DNA of 64,000 nucleotides from Chelatococcus sambhunathii (GTDB taxonomy: Bacteria; Pseudomonadota; Alphaproteobacteria; Rhizobiales; Methylopilaceae). Below the pieces are notes generated by a model. That model ran no database searches. It saw nothing but the letters and a program-made list of their open reading frames with translations, and was not told the origin of the DNA. Shown here piece by piece: positions 5,831 to 18,659 of this stretch. How positions within the stretch are numbered: the first letter of the stretch is position 1; each line of letters starts with the position of its first letter. A program made the translations under genes and the position numbers. The stretch is taken from the NCBI GenBank assembly GCA_031316315.1, contig JADBEO010000010.1, forward strand, positions 1 to 64,000, written 5' to 3'.

Positions 5831-6167
5831 ACGTCAGTCTAACGCGCTGGTGTTCACGCCCCTGTGAAGCCCCGCCGTCGAGGAAATAAGAAGTTCCTCA
5901 ACGGCGAGACGGTATTGAACGAACGTCAATCGGCGAATCACGTTTTGGTGGGCGTCGCAACTGTTTAACCGGCTCACGATATTCCAACCATCTCCTGATC
6001 TCTTCATGGAGATTTCATCTACTTCACACCTGGAAAGGACTGTGTCGTAAACGCATCATAGCCGTATCTGCATGTGATTTCGGGTCGCCGCAAAGTTTTC
6101 ATGCCTCGCCCGTGTGTCATTCTCGGATCCTGCCATCGGGGTAGATTGGGCAGCAGGGGACGAAGAC
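5831..6167 (+). promoter_or_regulatory. Non-coding leader upstream of the porin gene
   Basis: This 337-base gap has no convincing gene and is richer in A+T than its surroundings. It holds the strong hairpin at 5873-5906 and a weaker one near 5990-6017 (ATCTCC/GGAGAT). The remainder probably carries the porin promoter, but no -35/-10 pair stands out. Confidence 0.4.
5873..5906. repeat. Strong hairpin downstream of the lipid kinase gene
   Basis: CGCCGT-C-GAGGAA (5873-5885) pairs with TTCCTC-A-ACGGCG (5894-5906) around an 8-base loop: 12 base pairs with one C/A mismatch. It ends 43-76 bases after the lipid kinase stop. No T-tract follows on either strand, so it is not a standard intrinsic terminator. 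Confidence 0.6.
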
Positions 6168-7016
6168 ATGAACAGGTGCGCAATTGCGGCAGTCGCGCTA
6201 GCCGCAGGGTTCGGGTGCGCGACGACGGGCGTCGCGCAGGCCGCCGATCTGGCAGAGCCGGCGCCGGCGGTCGAGGCCGCGGTTCCGTCGCTGTTCGACG
6301 TCGCCTTCGGCGTCGCCGGCGTAACAGACTACCGCTTCCGCGGCGTGACGAACTCCAAGAAAGACCCGGCGATCCAGGGCTATGTCGAGCTGCAGACCGA
6401 CTGGCTGTACGCCGGCGTCTGGTCCTCCAGCGTCAACTTCCCGCGGCCGCTCAGCGACCCGTCGGCTGAGATCGACCTCTACGGCGGCCTCCGCCACACC
6501 TGGGGTGCGTTCACCCTCGACGTCGGCTACCTGTACTACTGGTATCCGGGCGAGGCGAAGGCCTTCAACGGCGTCAAGATCCGCGAGACCGACTACTGGG
6601 AGATCAAGGCCCTTCCAAGCATCGCCATCGGCGACCTGGGCTCGATCACCGCCAACATCTGGTGGAGCAGCGATTACGCAAATACTGGCGCGAACGAGCT
6701 CTACCTCTCGATCGTCCCGAAGGTGAACATCCCGGTGGCCGCCTTCCCGAACCTCGGCTTCTACGTGTCGGGCGAGTTCGGCAAGCAGTGGATCAAGCGC
6801 ACCACCGACCTGAACGCCAACTACAATCCGCACGACTTCCTGACCTGGAACGTCGGCGGCGGCGTGACCTACAAGGCGATGACGCTCGACGTCCGCTACG
6901 TCGACACCGACCTGAACAAGAAGGAATGCGCGCTCAACACCGGCGTCCGTGGCTGGTGCGGCTCGACGGTGGTCGGCAAGATCGCCTTCGACACCTCGCT
7001 CAACAAGCTGAAGTGA
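6168..7016 (+). CDS. TorF family putative outer-membrane porin
   Basis: A 282-residue secreted beta-barrel protein. A signal peptide spans about residues 1-26 (ending GVAQAADL), followed by an acidic and proline-rich stretch and then FDVAFGVAGVTDYRFRGVTNSK, the N-terminal hallmark of the TorF/Gcw_chp putative porin family. The rest alternates aromatic and polar residues like outer-membrane strands (YLYYWYPGE, WSSDYANTG, FYVSGEFGKQW). The ATG at 6168 is preceded by AGGGGA with 7-base spacing; an in-frame ATG 54 bases upstream would bury the signal peptide. It is monocistronic, closed by the terminator at 7044-7077. No substrate is known. Confidence 0.85.
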   Translation: MNRCAIAAVALAAGFGCATTGVAQAADLAEPAPAVEAAVPSLFDVAFGVAGVTDYRFRGVTNSKKDPAIQGYVELQTDWLYAGVWSSSVNFPRPLSDPSAEIDLYGGLRHTWGAFTLDVGYLYYWYPGEAKAFNGVKIRETDYWEIKALPSIAIGDLGSITANIWWSSDYANTGANELYLSIVPKVNIPVAAFPNLGFYVSGEFGKQWIKRTTDLNANYNPHDFLTWNVGGGVTYKAMTLDVRYVDTDLNKKECALNTGVRGWCGSTVVGKIAFDTSLNKLK

Positions 7017-7078: not shown

Positions 7079-7330
7079 ATGCCCCTCGGATCGGCCTATC
7101 TGCTGCTCGGCCTTGTGACCGTAGCGGAAGTCGTCGCCACCTCCGCGCTCAAGACGTCCGAGGGTTTTGCGCGCCTCGGACCGGGTCTCGTCACCACGGC
7201 CAGCTGAGGCGTCGGCCTCTATCGGCTGTCCCGCGCTGGACCTGCCGGACGATCGATCGTCGGGATCGTGCTGATCGTCGCCGGCGTGGCCGTCGTTTCG
7301 CTGCTGTCCGGATCGGTGGCGCACCGACTG
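7079..7330 (+). pseudogene. Relic of a small multidrug resistance (EmrE/SMR) transporter
   Basis: From ATG 7079 the frame reads a recognisable SMR first helix and loop: LLGLVTVAEVVATSALK, with the essential Glu (EmrE E14 equivalent), then TSEGFARLGPGLVTT. It meets TGA at 7205-7207. The same frame continues with GVGLYRLSRA and then jumps directly to the fourth-helix end of the family, IVGIVLIVAGVAVVSLLS. About 40 residues covering helices 2 and 3 are missing. An in-frame stop plus an internal deletion makes it a dead gene. It begins right after the porin terminator and runs into the 3' end of the convergent regulator gene. The 3' limit is approximate. Confidence 0.75.
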
Positions 7331-7336
7331 CGGCGC

Positions 7337-9181
7337 TCAGGCCTCCGAAACGATCGCTCGTCGGACCGTTTCGAAACCGTCCACGTCCCGCGCCCCCCAG
7401 TCCGTGTGGGCGGCTCCGCCGTTGATCCAGCTGACGGACGCGCCGGCGTCCGCAGCGAAGCGGAGCGCGCGGCCGGCCTCCATCGCGAACACGCCGAGCG
7501 AAAGCTTCGGCCCGAAGGCGCGCAGCCGCGCCGCCGCCTGCGTCTCGTCGGCGACCTCGCAGACGCTTACGATCGGCGCGAACAGCGGCGCTTGCGCGAC
7601 CGCCATCGTCTCGTCCACGGCGTCGAGCAGCGTCGGCCTGAGGTGGCAGGCGCGACCGCGCCCGAACTCGTGGGTCCGCCCTCCGGCTTTCAGGGCGGCG
7701 CCCACCCTGCCCGCTTCCGCGATCGCCGACAGCGCCCGATCGAGAGCCTCCCTGTCGGGCAGCGGGCCAACGTCGCAGGCGGGATCGGTGGGGTCGCCGA
7801 GCTCCAGCGAGCGGATCTCGATCCGGAGCCTCTCGACCAGCGCGCGGCGCGCCGGCGAGGCTACGAAGACGATGGTCTCGCTGAGCGCGCGCCCGCGCGC
7901 CCAGGCCCGCGGCCCGCGCAGGAGCGCGACGGCGGCGGCGGGGACATCCGCGTCCTCGGCGACGAAGACCGCCGATTTCGGCGGTGGGCGCTCCCAGCCG
8001 GCGAGTTCCGGCGCGTGGATGCGCATGGCGCGCTCCGCGTCCTCGCCGGCGGCCGCCGCGAAGGCGTCGGCCGCGACGCCCGCCTCGACGAGAATCTCGC
8101 CGAGCCGATCGATCGCGCGGGCCTTGCGCGCCGCTGAGCAGATCAGGATCGAGCTCCCGGCGGCCAGCGCCGGGGCTGCGACGCGGCTCGCGGACAGCAG
8201 CGCCGCGCTCCAGTGGACGCCGGCGGCGACGGCGACGGCCGTGTCACGCAGTTCGACGCCATAGCAGCGCGAACCAAGGCGGACGCGTTCAGGCTGCGGC
8301 TCGCCGGCGCGTTCCGCCGCCCGCTCCAGGGCCCGGACGACCAGCGGGAGGTCGTGAGCCTCGATATCCGCGAGGGGGCGCAGCGTGTCGCGCGCCTCGA
8401 ACCTCGCGAGCGCGCGGCGCTCTCGGCGCACCAGTTCCGCTGCGCGGCGCAGCGCCTCGGCGCGCTCGAGCCGCTCGGCCGCGCGCCAGATCGGCGACCC
8501 GCGCCCGTTCGTGGCCGCCCATGCGCGCCGCGCCGTCGGCGCCGAAGGGGACGCTTGAGCGCCGCCGCCCGGCCCGATCAGCCACATGACGAGTTCGCGC
8601 ACCGCTGCGCGCGCCTCGGCGCCGTCGCCGCGCGTCTCCAGACTGGCGTGGGACTGAAGCCAAAGGCCGTCGATGGTCGCGGCGATCGTCGACACGGTGA
8701 GCTCGAGCCGATGCGGAGGAACCAGCTCGCGAAGCGCATGACGGAGATTCGAGCGCATCCTGCGCAAGTAGATCGCCTGCACGCGCCGGTACGGTTCGGA
8801 GTGCATGATCTGGCCCCAGAAGGCGAGCCAGACCGCGCTGGTGCGACGATCGAACTCCTCCGGGGCGAGCGTCGACTCCGGGACCGCAAGCACCCGCTCG
8901 ATCGGCGATCTCGCCGCCCGCATCCGTGTCGCGGTAGCGCGGGCGAGGCGGGTCGCCATGAAGCGCAGCGTCGCCTCCAGCAAGCCGTCCTTGTCGCCGA
9001 AGTAATGCGCGAACAGTCCGGGCGACACGCCGGCCCGCCGCGCGATCTCGCCGAGCGAGGCGGCTTTGAAGCCGACGTCCCCGACCGTCTCGATCGTCGC
9101 CTCTATCAGATGCCGACGGCGCTCCGCCTCGAAGCTCCGCATCGGATCGATATCGGGGAACGCAGGGTCGCTCGCGGCCAT
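7337..9181 (-). CDS. BetI-like TetR regulator fused to a degenerate aldehyde dehydrogenase domain
   Basis: One uninterrupted 614-residue frame. Residues 1-203 form a TetR repressor of the BetI type: helix-turn-helix LGEIARRAGVSPGLFAHYFG at about 43-62, then KDGLLEATLRFM and AVWLAFWGQ. After a linker (204-226), residues 227-614 follow the BetB encoded 3.4 kb away (IWRAAERLERAEALRRAAEL; APALAAGSSILI; KSAVFVAEDAD; SVSWINGG). By alignment, catalytic Cys300 of BetB is Ala432, Asn167 is Ser325, NAD-contact Lys190 is Cys348 and Glu401 is Pro532. About 30 residues containing the NAD-loop glycines and the catalytic Glu region are deleted or altered. Enzyme activity is therefore unlikely; a sensor role is inferred. 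ATG 9181 sits 18 bases from an operator. It is divergent from choX. Confidence 0.85.
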   Translation of the reverse strand: MAASDPAFPDIDPMRSFEAERRRHLIEATIETVGDVGFKAASLGEIARRAGVSPGLFAHYFGDKDGLLEATLRFMATRLARATATRMRAARSPIERVLAVPESTLAPEEFDRRTSAVWLAFWGQIMHSEPYRRVQAIYLRRMRSNLRHALRELVPPHRLELTVSTIAATIDGLWLQSHASLETRGDGAEARAAVRELVMWLIGPGGGAQASPSAPTARRAWAATNGRGSPIWRAAERLERAEALRRAAELVRRERRALARFEARDTLRPLADIEAHDLPLVVRALERAAERAGEPQPERVRLGSRCYGVELRDTAVAVAAGVHWSAALLSASRVAAPALAAGSSILICSAARKARAIDRLGEILVEAGVAADAFAAAAGEDAERAMRIHAPELAGWERPPPKSAVFVAEDADVPAAAVALLRGPRAWARGRALSETIVFVASPARRALVERLRIEIRSLELGDPTDPACDVGPLPDREALDRALSAIAEAGRVGAALKAGGRTHEFGRGRACHLRPTLLDAVDETMAVAQAPLFAPIVSVCEVADETQAAARLRAFGPKLSLGVFAMEAGRALRFAADAGASVSWINGGAAHTDWGARDVDGFETVRRAIVSEA

Positions 9182-9199
9182 AGCGCAGGATAGGCATGC

Positions 9200-9217
9200 A
9201 TTGAATGACCGTTCAAT
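9200..9217. promoter_or_regulatory. BetI-type operator O1
   Basis: ATTGAATGACCGTTCAAT has 6-bp inverted arms ATTGAA/TTCAAT. Its reverse complement differs from O2 (9353-9370) at one base. The site lies 18 bases upstream of the regulator start codon, where binding would block its own expression. The arms resemble the BetI site known in enterobacteria. Confidence 0.8.
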
Positions 9218-9352
9218 ATCTATCGCTGTCCGGCGGCTAGCAACGTCGGAAAAAGGCCGACAGCCATACCGGTTTGCACAAAAAAACGGCCGATTGACGC
9301 GAATGAAATCAACAAGATGACAGATTTTGCGCTGCATCATTTGCATTTTGCT

Positions 9353-9370
9353 ATTGAACGATCATTCAAT
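9353..9370. promoter_or_regulatory. BetI-type operator O2
   Basis: ATTGAACGATCATTCAAT, an inverted repeat with the same arms as O1, ends 55 bases upstream of the choX start codon. It is placed to control the choXWV-betBA operon. The centres of O1 and O2 are 153 bp apart. Confidence 0.8.
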
Positions 9371-9425
9371 GCGATCTACGACTCGCGCAGCGCCAGTTGA
9401 GGCCCCGGCTTTTGGAGGTTTCCCC

Positions 9426-10373
9426 GTGAAGCGTCGTACCCTCGGATTTTCGGTTCTGTTCGCCGCGCTGCTCGGCGGCGGCGCGGTCCAGGCGGCCGAC
9501 CCCGCCTCGTGCAAGGCTGTGCGGTTCGCCGACGTCGGCTGGACCGACATCACCTCGACCACTGCGATCGCCTCCCGCCTCCTGAAGCCCCTCGGCTACG
9601 AGCCGAAGACCCAGGTGCTCTCGGTCCCGGTCACCTACGCCTCGCTGAAGTCGAAGGACATCGACGTCTTCCTCGGCAACTGGATGCCGACCATGGAGGC
9701 GGATCGGAAGCCCTATGTCGACGCCGGCCAGATCGATGTGATCGGCCCGAACCTCAAGGGCGCGAAGTACACGCTGGCGGTGCCGGCCTATCTCTACGAC
9801 GCGGGTCTGAAGAGCTTCGCGGACATCGCCAAGTTCAGGGACAAGCTGAAAGACAAAATCTACGGCATCGAGCCGGGCAACGACGGCAACCGCCTGATCC
9901 TCGGCATGATCAAGGACGGCAAGTTCGACCTCAAGGGCTTTGATCTGGTCGAGTCGAGCGAGCAGGGCATGCTCGCCCAGGTCGACCGCGCCCAGCGCCG
10001 CAAGGAGCCGATCGTGTTCCTCGGTTGGGAGCCGCATCCAATGAACACCAAGTTCGCCATGAAGTATCTCGAGGGCGGCGACGAGGTGTTCGGCCCGAAC
10101 TACGGCGGGGCGGAGATCTTCACCAACCTGCGCGCCGGCTACGCCAAGGAATGCCCGAACCTCGGCGCCTTCTTCAACAAGCTGACCTTCACGCTCGACA
10201 CCGAGAACAAGGTGATGGGCTCGATCCTCGACGACGGGATGGAGGGCGAGAAGGCCGCCGAGAAGTGGCTGAAGTCCGAGCCCGAGACGTGGAAACCCTG
10301 GCTCGATGGCGTGACCACGCTCGACGGCCAGCCCGCCCTGCCCGTCGTGCAGAAGAGCCTCGGCCTGAACTGA
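9426..10373 (+). CDS. choX: Choline ABC transporter substrate-binding protein
   Basis: A 315-residue periplasmic binding protein with a signal peptide (residues 1-24, ending AVQAAD). It carries the aromatic-box segments of ChoX: VRFADVGWTDITSTT, FLGNWMPTM, YTLAVPAYLYD, IEPGNDGNRL and FLGWEPHPMN, which supply the Trp, Asp, Tyr and Asn contacts known from the Sinorhizobium meliloti protein. The start is GTG at 9426 with GGAGG at 9414-9418; the frame is open further upstream but that region holds operator O2. It heads choXWV-betBA and delivers choline to the ChoW/ChoV permease. Confidence 0.92.
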   Translation: MKRRTLGFSVLFAALLGGGAVQAADPASCKAVRFADVGWTDITSTTAIASRLLKPLGYEPKTQVLSVPVTYASLKSKDIDVFLGNWMPTMEADRKPYVDAGQIDVIGPNLKGAKYTLAVPAYLYDAGLKSFADIAKFRDKLKDKIYGIEPGNDGNRLILGMIKDGKFDLKGFDLVESSEQGMLAQVDRAQRRKEPIVFLGWEPHPMNTKFAMKYLEGGDEVFGPNYGGAEIFTNLRAGYAKECPNLGAFFNKLTFTLDTENKVMGSILDDGMEGEKAAEKWLKSEPETWKPWLDGVTTLDGQPALPVVQKSLGLN

Positions 10374-10536
10374 GCGTTCAGGCCTCGCCCGGGCCGGATC
10401 ACGGGCGCCAGGATCGCTACGGACGGCGGACAGACCGCCCGTCGCGTCCGCATTCGGATCGCCCTGCCGCCTCGCCGGCCGCCGGTCCTCCGCCGCCCGT
10501 TTGCGACCCATCCGCCAGACCCCGGGGCCCGCGCGC

Positions 10537-11394
10537 ATGTATGAATGGTTGACGTCCCACAAGATCCCGGTCGGCTCTGTGCTGACCACGGCGATCAACT
10601 TCCTGACCGATCACGGGCAAGCCTTCTTCGACTTCGTCTCGATCGCGCTGTCGTCGATGGTCGACGGCCTCACCGCGGTGCTGCTGGCTGCGCCCGCGCT
10701 GCTGCTGATCGGGCTGTTCGCGGCCGGCGCCTGGTTCCTGCACCGCTCGTTCGGGCTCGTCGCCTTCATCGTCCTGTCGCTGCTGCTGGTGATCAACCTC
10801 GGCTACTGGGAAGCGACGATGCAGACGCTGTCGCTGGTCATCTGGTCGACGCTCACCTGCATCGTGATCGGCGTGCCGGTCGGCATCATGGCGGCGCACC
10901 GGCCGTGGCTCTACGCGGCGATCCGGCCGGTGCTCGACCTGATGCAGACGATTCCGACCTTCGTGTACCTGATCCCCACGCTGGTGCTGTTCGGGCTCGG
11001 CACGGTGCCGGGCGTGATCTCGACCGTGATCTTCGCCCTGCCGGCGCCGATCCGCCTTACGCAGCTCGGCATCTCCTCGGTGCCTGAGTCGCTGCGCGAA
11101 GCCGCGCTCGCCTATGGCGCCACCAAGCGCCAGCTTCTCTTCAAGGTGGAACTGCCCGCCGCCATGCCGACGATCCTCGCCGGCGTCACCCAGTGCATCA
11201 TGCTGAGCCTGTCCATGGTGGTCATCGCCGCGCTGGTCGGCGCCGACGGCCTCGGCAAGCCGGTCGTGCGGGCGCTGAACTCGGTCAACATCTCCATGGG
11301 CTTCGAGGCCGGCATCGCGATCGTCGTGCTCGCGATCATCCTCGACCGCGTCTGCAAGCGGCCTGAGCGGCAGGCCCGCAGGAGGCCGGCATGA
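10537..11394 (+). CDS. choW: Choline ABC transporter permease
   Basis: A 285-residue inner-membrane permease of the OpuAB/ProW family. Several hydrophobic helices surround the EAA loop (SLREAALAYGATKRQLLFKVELPAAMPTILAG), which docks on the ATPase. Segments TIPTFVYLIPTLVLFGLG and LVGADGLGKPV are typical of choline/betaine permeases. The start is ATG 10537, 163 bases after choX. Its last four bases (ATGA) overlap the choV start, so translation is coupled. Confidence 0.92.
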   Translation: MYEWLTSHKIPVGSVLTTAINFLTDHGQAFFDFVSIALSSMVDGLTAVLLAAPALLLIGLFAAGAWFLHRSFGLVAFIVLSLLLVINLGYWEATMQTLSLVIWSTLTCIVIGVPVGIMAAHRPWLYAAIRPVLDLMQTIPTFVYLIPTLVLFGLGTVPGVISTVIFALPAPIRLTQLGISSVPESLREAALAYGATKRQLLFKVELPAAMPTILAGVTQCIMLSLSMVVIAALVGADGLGKPVVRALNSVNISMGFEAGIAIVVLAIILDRVCKRPERQARRRPA

Positions 11395-12605
11395 GCGCCG
11401 GCGCGAAGGGGGACGCGACGATGAACGCCCAGACGAACGCGGTCGAGCTCGAAGACCTCGCCATCATCTTCGGTAACGCCAAGCGCGCGCTGGCGCTCGC
11501 CGACGCCGGCGCCGACCGCGACAAGATCCGCGACGACAGCGGCGCGACGCTCGGCGCCTACAAGGTCAATCTCGACATCCGCGAGGGCGAGATCTGCGTG
11601 CTGATGGGCCTGTCGGGCTCGGGCAAGTCGACCGTGCTGCGCGCCATCAACGGGCTCAACAAGACGGCCCGTGGCAAGGTGCTGGTCCGCCACGAAGGCA
11701 AGCAGGTCGATGTGGCGACCTGCAACGCCGCGACGCTGCGCGAGATCCGGCTGAAGACGGTCTCGATGGTGTTCCAGCAGTTCGGCCTGCTGCCCTGGCG
11801 CTCGGTGCGCGACAATGTCGGCTTCGGCCTCGAGATCCGCGGCATGCCCGCCGCCGAGCGCAAGGCGATCGTCGACGAGAAGCTCGAGATGGTCGGCCTC
11901 GGGCGCTGGGCCGACAAGATGGTGCAGGAGCTGTCCGGCGGCATGCAGCAGCGCGTCGGCCTCGCCCGCGCCTTCGCCACCGACGCCGACATCCTGCTGA
12001 TGGACGAGCCGTTCTCGGCGCTCGACCCGCTTATCCGCGACAAGCTTCAGGACGACTTGCTCAGCCTGCAGGAGCGGCTGAAGAAGACCATCGTCTTCGT
12101 CAGCCACGACCTCTCCGAGGCGCTCAAGATCGGCAACCGCATCGCCATCATGGAGGGCGGGCGCGTCGTCCAGTTCGGCGCCGCCGCCGACATCATGCTG
12201 CGGCCGGCCGACGATTATGTCGCCGAGTTCGTGAAGCGCATGAACCCGCTGGAGGTGCTGTGCGCGGACGCGGTGATGACGCCGGCGGACAAGCTCAAGC
12301 GCGAGGCGGGCGGCTGCGTGCTGCTGAACGGCGACGGCTCCGCCAAACTTACCCTCGACGGCGCCGGCAAGCCGGTGTCGCTCAGCGTCGACGGCAGGTC
12401 GTGCAGGATCGGCGAGATCGGCCTCGACGGCGCCCGCAAGTCGGAGGGCGAGATCCTAGTCGCGCCGGCGGAACTGCCGCTCAAGACCGCGATCGAGATC
12501 CGCCGCAACACCGACTACCCGATCGCACTGGTCGACCAGCTCGGCCGGCTCGCCGGGCTTTGCGACCATCAGGAAATCTACAAGGGGCTGTTGCAGAAGC
12601 CATGA
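11391..12605 (+). CDS. choV: Choline ABC transporter ATP-binding protein
   Basis: A 404-residue ATPase of the ProV/OpuAA type. Walker A GLSGSGKS is at residues 73-80, the Q-loop Gln near 129, the signature LSGGM at 181-185 and Walker B ILLMDE at 201-206, followed by the switch His in [11 protein letters not shown]. The C-terminal region after about residue 275 is a regulatory extension that here resembles a degenerate CBS region. It overlaps choW and betB by four bases on each side (ATGA), so uptake and oxidation are translated as one coupled unit. Confidence 0.92.
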
Positions 12606-14116
12606 GCGCCGCCGCATCCGCCATGCCGCTTCCGGCCGCGTCGCAGCCGGAGTTCGGCCTCCTCAAGCTTCACATCGGCGGCGACTATGTCGACGCGGCC
12701 GGGCCGGAAACCTTCGAGACCGTTAATCCGGCGACGGGCGAGGTCCTCGCGGTCGTCCAGCAGGCGAGCGCGGCGGACGTCGACCGCGCGGTCGCCGCGG
12801 CGGCGGCCGGTCAGAAGATCTGGGGCGCGACGAGCGCGGTGGAGCGCTCCCGCGTCCTGCGCCGCGCCGTCGAGATCCTGCGCGCGCGGAACGACGAGTT
12901 GGCGCGGATCGAGACGCTCGACACCGGCAAGCCATACTCCGAGACGAAGGCGGTCGACGTCGTCACCGGCGCCGACGTGCTCGAATATTATGCCGGCCTC
13001 GCCCCCTCGCTCGAAGGCCGCCAGATCCCGCTGCGGGAGACCTCCTTCGTCTATACGCGGCGCGAGCCGCTCGGGGTCGTCGCCGGCATCGGCGCATGGA
13101 ACTACCCGATCCAGATCGCGCTCTGGAAGTCGGCGCCTGCGCTCGCGGCCGGCAACGCCATGATCTTCAAGCCGAGCGAGGTGACGCCGATCACCGCGCT
13201 CAAGCTCGCTGAAATCTACGCCGAGGCCGGGCTGCCGGCCGGCGTCTTCAACGTGCTGAACGGCGTCGGCGCCGCGGTCGGCGCGGCCATCACCGAACAT
13301 CCCGGCATCGCCAAGGTGTCGTTCACCGGCGGTACGGTGACCGGCAAGAAGGTGATGGCCAGCGCCTCCGCCTCGACGCTGAAGGAGGTGACGATGGAGC
13401 TCGGCGGCAAGTCGCCGCTGATCGTCTTCGAGGACGCTGACCTCGACCGCGCCGCCGACATCGCCGTCATGGCGAACTACTTCTCCTGCGGCCAAGTCTG
13501 CACCAACGGAACGCGCGTGTTCGTGCCGGCGTCGCTGAAGTCCGACTTCGAGGACAAGGTGCTGTCGCGCGTCCGCCGCATCCGCGTTGGCGATCCGCTC
13601 GACGAGAGCGTCAATTTCGGCCCGCTCTCCAGCTTAGCGCATATGCAGAAGGTGCTCTCCTACATCGAGCGCGGGAAGGCGGCGGGCGCGAAACTGCTGA
13701 TCGGCGGCGAGCGCCTCGCGGACGGCGCGTTCGGCGCCGGCGCTTTCGTCGCGCCGACGGTCTTCACCGACTGCACGGACGAGATGGACATCGTCCGCGA
13801 CGAGATTTTCGGACCGGTCATGAGCATCCTCTCCTATGACAGCGAGGACGAGGCCGTGACCCGCGCCAACGCGACGGCTTACGGCCTCGCTGCGGGTCTC
13901 GTCACCCGCGACGTCGCGCGCGCCCACCGCGTCATCCACCGGCTCCAGGCGGGCATCTGCTGGATCAACACCTGGGGCGAGTCCCCGGCCGAGATGCCGG
14001 TCGGCGGCTACAAGCAGTCGGGCGTCGGGCGAGAGAACGGCGTCGAGACGCTGGAGCGCTACACGCAGACGAAGTCGATCCAGGTCGAGCTCGGCGAGTT
14101 CGCCTCGGTGTTCTGA
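12602..14116 (+). CDS. betB: Betaine aldehyde dehydrogenase
   Basis: A 504-residue NAD(P)-dependent aldehyde dehydrogenase that oxidises betaine aldehyde to glycine betaine. Landmarks are Asn167 (GAWNYP), Lys190 (IFKPSE), the FTGGTVTG loop (241-248), Glu266 (MELGGKS) and catalytic Cys300 (CGQVCTNG), followed by EIFGP and [21 protein letters not shown]. All are intact, unlike the related domain of the regulator at 7337-9181. The ATG at 12602 overlaps the choV stop. betA follows after 29 bases. Confidence 0.95.
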
Positions 14117-14145: not shown

Positions 14146-15837
14146 ATGGCCCTGAAGGAATATGACTACATCGTCATCGGTGCCGGCTCGGCGGGCAACG
14201 TGCTCGCCGCGCGGCTGACCGAGGACGCGGACGTGACCGTCCTGCTGCTGGAGGCGGGCGGGCCGGACTACCGGCTCGACTTCCGCACGCAGATGCCGGC
14301 CGCGCTCGCTTATCCCTTGCAGGGCCGCCGCTACAACTGGGCCTATCTCACCGATCCCGAGCCGCACATGAACGGCCGCCGCATGGAGTGCGGACGCGGA
14401 AAAGGGCTCGGCGGCTCCTCGCTGATCAACGGCATGTGCTACATCCGCGGAAACGCGATGGACTTCGACGGCTGGGCGCAGGCGCCGGGGCTCGGCGACT
14501 GGACCTACGCCGACTGCCTGCCCTATTTCCGCAAGGCGGAAACCCGCGACGTCGGCCCGAACGACTATCATGGCGGCGACGGCCCGGTCAGCGTCACGAC
14601 CTCCAAGCCGGGCGTCAACGAGCTGTTCGAGGCGATGATCGAGGCCGGGGTCCAGGCTGGATATCCGCGCACCGAGGACCTCAACGGCTACCAGCAGGAA
14701 GGCTTCGGTCCGATGGACCGGACGGTGACGAAGAAGGGCCGGCGGTCGAGCACCGCGCGCGGCTATCTCGACGTCGCGAAGGAGCGGGCGAACCTCACCA
14801 TCGCGACCCACGCCACGACCGACCGCATCATCTTCTCCGGCAAGCGCGCCATCGGCGTGTCCTATCTCGAGGGATCGGGCGACGAGACGGTGATCGCGCA
14901 TGCGCGGCGCGAGGTGCTGTTGTCGGCCGGCGCGATCGCCTCGCCGCAGATCCTGCAACGCTCCGGCGTCGGCCCGGGCGCCCTGCTGCGCGAGGTCGGC
15001 GCGCCGATCGTGCTGGACCTGCCGGGCGTCGGCCAGAACCTGCAGGACCATCTCGAGATGTACCTGCAGTACGAGTGCAGGAAGCCCGTCTCGCTTGCGC
15101 CCGCGCTCAAGTGGTGGAACCAGCCGAGGATCGGCGCGGAATGGCTGTTCCTCGGCACCGGCGTCGGGGCAAGCAACCAGTTCGAGGCCGGCGGCTTCAT
15201 CCGGTCGAGCTCGGAGTTCGCCTGGCCGAACCTGCAGTACCACTTCCTGCCGGTCGCGATCAGCTACAACGGAACCAACGCCTTCGAGGGCCACGGTTTT
15301 CAGGCCCATGTCGGCTCGATGCGCTCGCCGAGCCGGGGCCGGATCGCGCTGACGTCGATGGACCCGCGCGAGCATCCGAGCATCCTGTTCAACTACATGA
15401 GCCATGAGCAGGACTGGCGCGAGTTCCGCGACGGCATCCGCCTCACCCGCGAGATCATGAGCCAGCCGGCGCTCGACCCCTATCGCGGGCGAGAGATCAG
15501 CCCGGGCGACCAGCGCCAGTCCGACGCAGATCTCGACGCCTTCGTGCGCGAGCACGCCGAGACCGCCTATCACCCCTCCTGCTCCTGCAAGATGGGCGAG
15601 GACGACATGGCGGTGGTCGACGGTCAGGGCCGCGTGCACGGGATCGAGGGCCTGCGGGTGATCGACGCCTCGATCATGCCCCTGATCATCACCGGCAACC
15701 TCAATGCGACGACGATCATGATGGCGGAGAAGATCGCCGACCGGATCCGCGGCCGCGCCCCGCTGCCGCGCAGCGACGCGCCCTATTTCGTCGCGGGCGA
15801 ACGTCCCGTCCGGCAGGCGCCGCTGCGCGCGGCGTGA
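14146..15837 (+). CDS. betA: Choline dehydrogenase (GMC oxidoreductase)
   Basis: A 563-residue FAD enzyme of the glucose-methanol-choline family that oxidises choline to betaine aldehyde. The FAD Rossmann motif GAGSAG is at residues 12-17, GMC signature 1 is around [20 protein letters not shown], signature 2 is [13 protein letters not shown], and the catalytic His476 lies in [25 protein letters not shown] closes the FAD domain. It is the last gene of the choline operon and ends 21 bases from the convergent LuxR-type gene. A short GTGAGC/GCTCAC hairpin spans the junction. Confidence 0.95.
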
Positions 15838-15858: not shown

Positions 15859-16902
15859 TTACGTCGCGGGACGGCCGAACTTCTGCACGAGGGCCCGCTC
15901 AGAGCTGACCTCGGCCTTGCGATAGATCCGCAGTCGGACGTTCTTCACCGCGCCCTTGCTGATCCCGAGAGCCTGCGCGATCGCGCCGGTGGTCTTGCCG
16001 GCCATCACGAGGTCGAACACGTCGCGCTCGCGCGCGGTGAGGCCGCTCTCGATCGCGGAGGACGGGCGCTCCGCCGCGCCTTCCGCGCCGGCCTCGGGCT
16101 TCGGCGCCAGCACAAACATCGTTCCGGAGGGCGCCAGCGGAAAATAGCGGTCGAACCGCTCGATCTTCAGCAGGAAGTCCGGGAGCGTGATCTGCCGCTC
16201 CTCCCCCGCGGAAGCGACGGCGTCGAGGATCGCAGGATCGTGCGCGGCCGCCTCGCGCCAGCCAGCGTTCGCGAAGATCTCGAGGCCGTGGCGATCGAGC
16301 ACAAGCGTCGGCCGCCCGGCGAGCTGGGTCTCGTTGACCTCGCCGGCGAAGCGCAGGCGGTCGAATATGCGGCCGATATGGGTCTTGTGGAAGCCGTCCA
16401 GCACTGGGAAGACCAGCTTGGTGCGCTCGATCTCGGCCGCGGTGAACCGGCCCTTCTCGCGCTCGAGGAACAGGCCGAGCGATGAGTTGCCGACGGTCGA
16501 GAAGAACACGCCGAGCTCGTCGGAAATCTTTGCTGCCGCCTTGAACAGCCGGTTGTAAGGCTTCGGGTCGACCGCCGCGCCGTCGCCGCGATCGAAGCCC
16601 GCGAGGGTGCGCACGCCCGGCTCCTCGAACCGCTTCCAGTGCGCCGAGAACGGATCGAGCGGGGCGCAGCGGGCCGAGTAGAACTCGACGACGTCCTGCG
16701 GGACGTTCCACGTGTAGATCACGTCCGGCGGCGCGACGCGCGAGTAGCGGATGATCCAGCTCGCGCTGTGCGGGATCGTCGATCCGAACAGCTCCACGAG
16801 CTGCTGATGGAAACGGTCCGTCCCCACCGAAGAGGCGACCTCGCCGACCCGCCGGAACCAATCGGCCTGCGCAAGCCTGATCGGCGCGGCTTCCGCGCTC
16901 AT
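15859..16902 (-). CDS. LuxR-type transcriptional regulator, downstream paralogue
   Basis: A 347-residue protein. Its C-terminal LuxR/GerE helix-turn-helix (about 275-335: LTARERDVFDLVMAGKTT, then IAQALGISKGAVKNVRLRIY) is preceded by a large N-terminal domain shared with the neighbour gene: DWFRRVGEV, WIIRYS, PPDVIYTWNVP, CAPLDPFSAHW. That domain is not recognised as an autoinducer-binding, PAS or receiver domain. The start ATG 16902 overlaps the upstream paralogue's stop (ATGA). The position between betA and the methylated-amine genes suggests control of one or both, which is inference. Confidence 0.8.
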   Translation of the reverse strand: MSAEAAPIRLAQADWFRRVGEVASSVGTDRFHQQLVELFGSTIPHSASWIIRYSRVAPPDVIYTWNVPQDVVEFYSARCAPLDPFSAHWKRFEEPGVRTLAGFDRGDGAAVDPKPYNRLFKAAAKISDELGVFFSTVGNSSLGLFLEREKGRFTAAEIERTKLVFPVLDGFHKTHIGRIFDRLRFAGEVNETQLAGRPTLVLDRHGLEIFANAGWREAAAHDPAILDAVASAGEERQITLPDFLLKIERFDRYFPLAPSGTMFVLAPKPEAGAEGAAERPSSAIESGLTARERDVFDLVMAGKTTGAIAQALGISKGAVKNVRLRIYRKAEVSSERALVQKFGRPAT

Positions 16903-18038
16903 CTGCCGGCCGATTCCGGAGCGAGATCGACGGGCACGATTTGCGCGACTGCCCAATTTTTCGGCACGGCGCTTCCCCGGCCTGGGGCTTGGGGCTCGTA
17001 CAACGGCATGAACTTGGCGACGAGCGCGCGCTCCGTCTCGACCTCCGCCTTTCGGTAGATGCGCATCTTGCAGTTTTTGACGGTGCCGACGCCGATGCCG
17101 AGACGATCGGAGATCTCAGCGCTGTTTCGTCCCTGCATGACGAGGTCGAGAATGTCGCGCTCGCGCGGCGTGAAGATGCGGAAGACGTGGGAGAGGCTCT
17201 CGAACCGTTCTTCGCCGTAGGCCGAAGCGTGGCGCTCGATAACGTACATCCGCCCGCCTGGCGCCAGCGGGAAATCGGCGCCGAGAAGTTCCGCCTTCAG
17301 CACGAAATCCTCGTAATCGGCTTGCCCCGCGGCGCCGGACGAAAGCGCTTCGACATCCGCGGCGATCTCGGGATGACGCGCGATCACCTCGTTCCAGCCG
17401 TCGTTGGCGTAGACCTGCTGACGCGTGCGATCGCGGATCAGGGTCGGACGGTTGATGAGTCCGGTGACCTCCGGCGTGTTGGTGTGGCGCAGTTCGTTGA
17501 ACAGCCAGCCGAGGTGGGCCCGATGGAAGCTCTCCAGCGCCGGGAACATCAGCCGTGCGCGCTCGACTTCGGCCTTCGTGAAGTGGCCCTTTTCGCGCTC
17601 CAGGAAAAACGCGAAACAGTTGTGCGCCGTGACGGGGAAAAAGACGCCGAGTTCGTCCTCCATGCCGGCGGCCTGAAGGAATATCTTTTTGTAGACGAGG
17701 TACTCGACGCTGTCGTCAGGCAGGGTCTGGAGCGTGAAGACGCCCGAATCCCTTGTCCTGCGCCATCGCATCGAAAACGGATCGACGCCGGCGCACTGCT
17801 CAACATAGACTTTCTCGGCCTCGGCCGGCACATTGTAGGTGTAGACGACGTCCGGCAGCGCCTCGCCGGAATAGCGGATGATCCAGACGGCGTCGCTGCG
17901 AATGCTCGCCTCGAGCAGCTTGATGAGTTCGCGGTGGAAGAACTGCGTCCCGATCGACTGAATGACTTCGCCGGCGCGCTCGAACCAGTCGGGCGTGTCA
18001 ATGCGGGGCAGGCCTGAACGCAGGCTCGTCGAACTCAT
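16899..18038 (-). CDS. LuxR-type transcriptional regulator, upstream paralogue
   Basis: A 379-residue paralogue of the next gene with the same order: N-terminal unknown domain (DWFERAGEV, WIIRYSGEALPDVVYTYNVP, CAGVDPFSMRW, DELGVFFPV) and a C-terminal LuxR/GerE helix-turn-helix (FTPRERDILDLVMQGRN, ISDRLGIGVGTVKNCKMRIY). ATG 18038 was chosen because it matches the paralogue's N-terminal length; TTG 18071 with GAGG upstream is an alternative adding 11 residues. The C-terminus carries an extra tail of about 35 residues. The two genes are translationally coupled through ATGA. Confidence 0.8.
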   Translation of the reverse strand: MSSTSLRSGLPRIDTPDWFERAGEVIQSIGTQFFHRELIKLLEASIRSDAVWIIRYSGEALPDVVYTYNVPAEAEKVYVEQCAGVDPFSMRWRRTRDSGVFTLQTLPDDSVEYLVYKKIFLQAAGMEDELGVFFPVTAHNCFAFFLEREKGHFTKAEVERARLMFPALESFHRAHLGWLFNELRHTNTPEVTGLINRPTLIRDRTRQQVYANDGWNEVIARHPEIAADVEALSSGAAGQADYEDFVLKAELLGADFPLAPGGRMYVIERHASAYGEERFESLSHVFRIFTPRERDILDLVMQGRNSAEISDRLGIGVGTVKNCKMRIYRKAEVETERALVAKFMPLYEPQAPGRGSAVPKNWAVAQIVPVDLAPESAGR

Positions 18039-18659
18039 GCCCGGATCGTAGGGATATTCCAGGCCGGACAAAAGCGCGGAGCCTCAATTGCGCGCCCTCC
18101 AATGGTGCCACTCGTCACCATTGCGCCTCGCCCACGGCGCGCGGATGATATCCTCAAAAGAATAAGACTGAGGAAACGCGCAGACTTGCGCAGGAAGCTT
18201 TCGATCCGGGCGAGACCGCGCGGATTCCGGGGCTATTGCGCCCAAGTCGAACGCATCGCGCTACCACTGGAATTGCACGTCACGCGGCGTCTTCTCCGCG
18301 AGATTGACTGCGCGTGTGCGCTGTTAACGGGATCGTATCTTTTGCCGCAATCGTTGGCGTTGACGCCTACTTTTTATTCAGAAGAAAAAATTTTGACAGA
18401 CACGATCTTTTCTGCATCATCCGATCCTAGGTCGCCGATCGAAAGATAGACTGGGGCGGCAAGTGAGCGATTGTTCGATGCTGGAAAAATCGAAAGCCGT
18501 CACAACGCCTTCAATCATCCGGTCGGTCCGCCGCGGCGTCGGCGCGACCGGCGCTGATGCTTCGAGGCGTCGCGCGAATGCTCGGCCGACAGCCGTCGCC
18601 ATGCTTCCGGAACGGGCCTCACAGCGTCAAGCGCGCGAATACTGTAACGGGGATCGGTA
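18039..18659. other. Intergenic region between LuxR pair and permease
   Basis: About 620 bases without a credible gene. The right half becomes A+T-rich (18350-18420) and carries the promoter at 18393-18420. The left half must hold the promoter of the divergent LuxR pair; no clear box was found. Confidence 0.5.
18393..18420 (+). promoter_or_regulatory. Candidate sigma-70 promoter for the permease gene
   Basis: TTGACA (18393-18398), a consensus -35, is followed after 16 bases by CATCAT (18415-18420), a four-of-six match to TATAAT. It points at the permease start 239 bases downstream, which implies a long leader. Confidence 0.5.

Follow-up and report, generated by a model that had tools for sequence, protein, structure and literature searches.

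The window, that is, the whole stretch of 64,000 nucleotides analysed here, harbors on its minus strand a frame at 7337–9181 (stop codon included) that is translated into 614 residues and a final stop, in which a BetI-type TetR repressor part (residues 17–199; 8585–9133, minus strand) is followed by an aldehyde dehydrogenase (ALDH)-like part (residues of about 212–590; 7412–8548, minus strand). The open frame of this fusion gene, at 7340–9361, extends upstream past the likely start, which is why a preliminary description of the locus had placed its end at 9370. In Pfam searches of the 614-residue protein, TetR_N (25–70), the BetI-type TetR_C_6 (93–199), and Aldedh in two stretches (the best at 402–590) all exceed their gathering cut-offs; the single frame with both kinds of domain that had been described is thus confirmed by translation and domain search alike. 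The N-terminal half, which possesses both the TetR_N and the BetI-type C-terminal domain of a BetI repressor, scores 161.2 bits against the NCBIfam BetI model NF001978 (over its cut-off of 118) and 174.2 bits against TIGR03384 (under its cut-off of 201.3). For the C-terminal half, the top ALDH family is betaine-aldehyde dehydrogenase (BADH), at 132.3 bits under a cut-off of 593, and a second BADH model gives the fusion protein 115.1 bits under a cut-off of 668.6; BetB is also the top ALDH family for the C-terminal halves of the homologues L057 and L051, and the BetB matches in a search of the window's own genome cover fusion residues 212–382 and 402–588. With five functional residues replaced and scores under the curated cut-offs, the protein belongs neither to the BADHs nor to the intact BetI–BetB fusions that retain all catalytic residues; likewise, Pfam detects only TetR_N, TetR_C_6, and Aldedh, so that a proline dehydrogenase domain is absent and the protein is not a PutA.

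The fusion gene is divergent from choXWV-betBA, all five genes of which lie on the plus strand. The substrate-binding protein gene choX (9402–10373; OpuAC in Pfam), which adjoins the fusion in relatives, and the permease gene choW (10501–11394; BPD_transp_1) both have uncertain start codons, and they are followed by choV (11391–12605), an open reading frame conserved as a neighbour in relatives and named in the preliminary description as a putative transporter ATPase. An intact betB (12602–14116; 504 residues) scores 719.2 bits, above the BADH cut-off of 668.6, and matches the structure 2WME, and betA (14146–15837), encoding choline dehydrogenase, scores 907.1 bits above a cut-off of 732.1. 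Two neighbouring LuxR-type regulators with GerE domains are located directly after betA on the opposite strand (15859–18071). On the other side, a remnant of an SMR-type multidrug-resistance transporter gene is found at 7079–7327, in which the first 42 residues match PF00893 barely above the cut-off before a stop, and the piece after the stop is without an SMR match. In the window (6114–7016) and likewise in genome G012 (L057, 10290–11285), a Gcw_chp gene is convergent with the fusion gene at its 3' end; G012 has this arrangement even though no cho-bet cluster adjoins its fusion.

The promoter region between the divergent genes contains a palindromic box of the kind expected for bet promoters in two predicted copies, O1 (9201–9216), just upstream of the fusion gene, and O2 (9354–9369), on the choX side and 153 bp from O1. 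Both are exact matches to TTGAAYRNNYRTTCAA and are the only two in the 4.1 Mb assembly of the window, in which the reversed pattern has no match; in a shuffle control, 5 of 100 shuffles gave at least two matches at up to 2 mismatches, and the two real sites have 0 mismatches. All seven genomes of the genus that were scanned and retain the cluster possess the palindrome pair, with nothing else in six of them and one further site in G011. These observations support the divergent arrangement with paired palindromes that had been proposed. A looser pattern, TTGA-N8-TCAA, was used to scan across groups: two sites occur in 11 of 13 dead fusions, i.e., those in which the ALDH part has lost its catalytic residues, with spacings of 152–153 bp in the Methylopila group and 175–187 bp in the Methylobacterium group, and pairs occur in all three half-decayed fusions (109–111 bp) and in both Hansschlegelia species (140–141 bp), which keep both palindromes without the ALDH half. 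As for the intact fusions, at least two sites are found in 5 of 14 (105–165 bp) and a single site in the remaining 9. A fixed helical phase between the operators, as in looping, was considered and was not discernible by eye in spacings of 105–187 bp, and the unfused Hansschlegelia loci have the pair as well.

An artefact of sequencing or assembly is ruled out as the origin of the joined frame, since full-length homologues occur in independent records, namely in Methylopila capsulata DSM 6130, Hyphomicrobium facile DSM 1565, and several Methylobacterium and Methylorubrum; consequently, two genes have not been merged by a sequencing error, an objection that had been raised beforehand. The same conclusion follows from the ALDH part, because 15 of 15 distinct rows (the window, L038–L045, L048–L051, L054, and L057) are equally dead by sequence. 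The reference for this assessment was the BetB of the window, which aligns without gaps to the Pseudomonas aeruginosa BADH 2WME at an offset of 14, its N167, K190, E266, C300, and E401 corresponding to 153, 176, 252, 286, and 387; these positions are taken here to be the oxyanion Asn, the catalytic Cys, the general-base Glu, and the NAD-contact Lys and Glu. In the aligned fusion, N167 is replaced by Ser325, K190 by Cys348, C300 by Ala432, E401 by Pro532, and E266 by Arg398. The losses of Cys, Asn, Lys, and Glu read earlier (Ala432, Ser325, Cys348, and Pro532) are all reproduced, and the catalytic residues do not reappear as intact on this alignment. None of the 15 dead rows retains the Cys, the Lys, or either Glu, and 14 of them have also lost the Asn. 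Moreover, the NAD region of the window fusion lacks 24 residues (BetB 234–257) and 2 nearby, and further losses of 10, 5, and 6 residues follow towards the C-terminus, so that the earlier figure of about 30 residues around the NAD loop was close.

Fusions of a TetR_N and an Aldedh domain near bet genes were indeed found in relatives, and the architecture is retained in 15 distinct dead rows and 14 intact fusions. In an order-wide search, both halves were spanned in one open frame in 24 of 397 genomes, a count that is not a frequency estimate, as the draw includes the window's own genus; for the window genome and G010, the TGA listed is the terminal stop or lies beyond the open frame. These 24 fusions were read as 7 dead, 3 half-decayed, and 14 intact. 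All eight checked sites are unchanged in each of the 14 intact fusions, each adjoins choXWV, and betA is adjacent in 13 (the exception being L108). In all 14 genomes the fusion is the single match above the curated BADH cut-off, which makes the fused BetB the foremost candidate for oxidising betaine aldehyde there, in the presence of ALDHs below the cut-off. A class-wide search of 385 genomes added, among the matches fetched, G765 and G764, two genomes from beyond the order with both halves in one frame, and in G765 a D replaces the E after FKPA. Komagataeibacter saccharivorans also carries a BetI–BetB fusion (L144, 4965–7043) on plasmid p221732, whose BetI half is 37% identical to that of the window and which may, given this low identity, represent a separate fusion event. 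Its record (WP_243705386.1) is annotated solely as betB/betaine-aldehyde dehydrogenase; at least one such fusion is filed as an enzyme with its repressor half hidden, which serves as a warning for annotation.

The half-decayed fusions (L110, L112, and L113) are 42, 41, and 34% identical to the BetB of the window, and their genomes (G308, G371, and G352) contain no BADH and no betA above the cut-off; in their genus, 6 of 14 genomes have the fusion, of which three are half-decayed and three intact. In the Methylopila relatives and in six Methylobacterium and Methylorubrum (L042–L045, L050, and L051), the dead fusion faces the cho genes, which are followed by a separate betB and betA. The active form of the ALDH fold is oligomeric, and this common fold, in conjunction with a separate betB at the same locus, would fit an ALDH half that docks on the active BetB oligomer and lets the level or state of the enzyme feed back on repression. 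Such docking is nevertheless judged highly improbable: the dead fusion persists in G012, which has no BADH above the cut-off, half-decayed fusions persist in three such genomes, and the C-terminal tail is shortened. Two dead fusions are orphans, at L057 (8282–10162; G012) and at L114 (7412–9418; Hyphomicrobium facile), with cho and bet genes absent from the stretches read. In G012, the gene preceding the fusion encodes a short-chain dehydrogenase, genes for a copper amine oxidase and an ALDH lie close by, and a betA above the cut-off is also missing from the genome; in H. facile, a different contig carries a betA above the cut-off, and a BADH-like match falls barely under the cut-off. Their position away from choline genes, together with the absence of the exact palindrome from both genomes, suggests that these orphan fusions may have acquired new targets. 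In Hansschlegelia quercus and H. plantiphila, the frames comprise only 237 and 246 residues and the ALDH half is missing, with no ALDH-like remnant found downstream of these short frames; the half is also missing in a Roseiarcus MAG. These three cases indicate that the ALDH half is dispensable for the basic layout.

Sequence conservation differs considerably between the two halves, as 90.6% of 49 invariant columns are kept in the BetI half and a mean of 34.9% of 123 in the ALDH half. The dN/dS of the dead ALDH part is 0.22–0.48 against 0.02–0.22 for the BetI half over nine pairs, which are non-independent and fall into two groups, and pair by pair the value of the ALDH half is 2 to 11 times that of the BetI half. 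For BetB, the pair of the window and L038 gives 0.12, and other pairs were left out because several frames were untrimmed. Neutral simulation of the window segment alone (600 runs, 300 substitutions, six settings) gave a minimum omega of 0.59, with 1.6–4.2 stops on average per 300 substitutions and 0 to 19 of 100 runs per setting free of stops. The observed omega lies below this neutral minimum, and the dead ALDH half is thus under purifying selection that is weaker than that on the BetI half; the differences between the window and its nearest relative in the dead part are distributed as 62/49/151 over the three codon positions. An alternative reading is that the half is a slowly decaying passenger with no selection on what is left of it, whose catalysis ended once its task passed to another BetB or the pathway disappeared, so that only BetI matters. 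The low share of invariant columns kept, the missing half in two Hansschlegelia and the Roseiarcus MAG inside the dead clade, and the three half-decayed fusions, whose genomes have neither BADH nor betA above the cut-off, are in accordance with it. The passenger reading is still considered unlikely in view of the omega values, of the frame, which in all 15 dead rows runs open as far as the C-terminal region with none of the expected stops seen, and of 29 of the 123 invariant columns that are kept in at least 12 of 15 rows.

If the dead half is selected, a ligand-related role has to be weighed, and the preliminary description had in fact proposed that the former enzyme became the sensor. The domain derives from an enzyme that bound such ligands as choline, betaine aldehyde, betaine, or NAD(H), and it is under selection, which would be in line with such a function. 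However, in addition to the Cys, the Lys, and both Glu, all 15 dead rows have lost two aromatics near the Asn (Y168 and W175 in BetB numbering) that presumably belong to the trimethylammonium cage, and the NAD region is deleted in the window as described above; the loss of the two cage residues makes a sensor in the old aldehyde pocket unlikely. At the same time, the better conserved BetI half is covered by an NCBIfam model named as a choline-binding repressor. A sensory ALDH half, which might still act through a newly formed pocket, is consequently regarded as distinctly improbable; the conserved fusion and the dead ALDH of the original proposal are borne out, and the sensor is a part that is weakened.

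The origin of the fusion can be approached through unfused loci. Five of these were selected for having betI and betB in a common frame, and in each of the five the stop of betI precedes an in-frame ATG by 0–24 bases, so that one stop-codon loss would suffice to join the genes there; at other unfused loci, betI and betB are in different frames. At L121 (G287; 7124–7963), betI and betA adjoin choXWV, and a betB-like frame was not found in the 15 kb read. BetI and ALDH trees were computed after six duplicate loci had been dropped (L055, L056, L070, L071, L072, and L114). In the BetI tree, the 15 dead rows and three unfused rows (the two Hansschlegelia and the Roseiarcus MAG) are set apart from the other rows by a branch with 100/100 support, beside an intact fusion (86/81), and the half-decayed rows sit with the intact fusions of their own genus; this separate placement indicates that decay probably happened twice, with the half-decayed forms as a probable second and independent case, and the BetI data do not reject at 0.05 a tree that holds the half-decayed rows with the dead clade (AU p 0.077). 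All fusions as one clade are supported with just 46/83.

In the full ALDH tree, a branch of its own with 13 rows (100/100) contains the BetB of the window's cluster; the fused BetBs lie elsewhere, and the dead domain groups with them (a 32-row group, 94/90). The same tree joined half-decayed to dead rows along long branches, a kind of join of which the program warned, and the placement of the dead ALDH in it is weak evidence. A second ALDH tree and AU tests were made without the long dead rows L041 and L049, the three half-decayed rows, and six outgroup ALDHs; with the half-decayed rows left out, the test rejected neither placement of the dead domain, be it beside the cluster BetB type (AU p 0.63) or beside the fused type (0.68). 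The dead half has diverged so far that trees of the ALDH part cannot by themselves single out its donor. The signature columns lean mildly to the fused type, with 11 fused-type against 7 cluster-type columns in the dead rows and 63 against 39 cells (333 being neither), and the half-decayed rows have 34 fused-like, 5 cluster-like, and 48 other cells. Conversely, at BetB position 341, where A is typical of fused and near-unfused BetBs, the dead rows have P (14) or S (1) and never A, which speaks against a fused-type donor in all 15 rows, and at position 285 all 15 have the A that is common to the cluster BetB type.

These data bear on two accounts of how the dead half was acquired. Capture from the BetB of the same cluster, as originally suggested, is disfavoured, because the architecture and the BetI half speak against capture and that BetB belongs to the separate 13-row branch; the signature columns likewise do not favour it, whereas the AU test allows it and columns 285 and 341 point away from a fused donor. 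More broadly, a cluster-type or other BetB may have been joined to BetI in a separate event in the dead lineage, an account compatible with any role of the half. The unrejected grouping with the cluster BetB type and the two columns are in its favour, as is the possibility that fusions arise repeatedly, exemplified by K. saccharivorans. It is nonetheless rated as rather unlikely, since the domain order and the place divergent from choXWV are the same as in intact fusions, the BetI half of the dead lineage lies beside intact fusions, and the half-decayed intermediates reveal that fused-type ALDHs decay likewise. Descent of the dead fusion from an intact BetI–BetB fusion is considered likely.

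Taken together, the explanation that is on balance considered the best is that of a choline-responsive repressor which descended from a bifunctional BetI–BetB and in which the dead ALDH has been kept as a structural or oligomerising domain. Stepwise, the loss of a stop codon between adjacent betI and betB would have produced a bifunctional protein that is apparently intact in many relatives; in the lineage of the window, a different betBA pair would have taken over the chemistry, after which the fused ALDH may have lost its catalytic and NAD-contact residues. The regulatory part of this explanation, in which the BetI repressor would bind O1 and O2 to repress both the divergent choXWV-betBA and its own gene with choline as the inducer, is held with high confidence, because it follows from established BetI biology, as outlined in PMC12442346, and from the conserved BetI half. 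The ALDH fold would mainly be kept as a non-catalytic module, whose task would most likely be to support oligomerisation or to position BetI dimers, and this structural role is advanced more tentatively, as a possibility short of probable that nevertheless ranks ahead of the passenger, sensor, and docking readings.

Living genomes thus present a series from separate betI and betB through intact fusion, half-decayed fusion, and dead but selected fusion to loss of the dead half; because of this series, the question of what preserves a dead enzyme within a transcription factor becomes testable by swaps between close relatives. In plain terms, a Methylopila-like bacterium has its predicted choline switch joined to a dead-looking copy of an enzyme of the same pathway, its relatives have the switch joined to an intact-looking copy, and the path between them is traceable. 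The preliminary description knew of no account of such a regulator, and among the matches listed, in titles and the beginnings of abstracts, no description of a BetI–ALDH or TetR–ALDH fusion was found, with subscription journals mostly outside the coverage.

Among known systems, BetI (TIGR03384, NF001978; TetR_C_6) shares with the fusion the N-terminal half, the place beside cho and bet genes, and the palindromic operator-like sites; its NCBIfam models are 189 and 197 positions long, whereas the fusion has about 400 further ALDH-like residues. BetB (TIGR01804, NF009725; PDB 2WME) is the best-scoring ALDH family of the C-terminal half, which differs from it in being without the catalytic residues. 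Fusions of a repressor with an enzyme from the pathway that it controls are uncommon, PutA being the best-known case, and some PutAs also carry a C-terminal domain of the ALDH superfamily. In Ruegeria pomeroyi, where two BetIs act as regulators (PMC12442346), the bet promoters likewise contain BetI boxes and a divergon has two palindromes, and the BetIs there are separate proteins, unlike the fusion; in the main text of that paper, the word "fused" does not occur and "fusion" occurs twice, both times for PCR constructs. The nearest working analogue is trifunctional PutA, in which one polypeptide combines a repressor that binds DNA with the aldehyde dehydrogenase belonging to the pathway under its control (PMC9132996). 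On this model, it may be speculated, with appreciable reserve, that BetI–BetB fusions are a TetR-based counterpart of PutA in which the oligomeric or ligand state of the enzyme tunes DNA binding, and that the pseudo-ALDH was exapted in the lineage of the window to assemble BetI dimers over two operators. Common ancestry with PutA is not claimed; the fusion has a TetR DNA-binding domain, no proline dehydrogenase domain, and a place in a different pathway.
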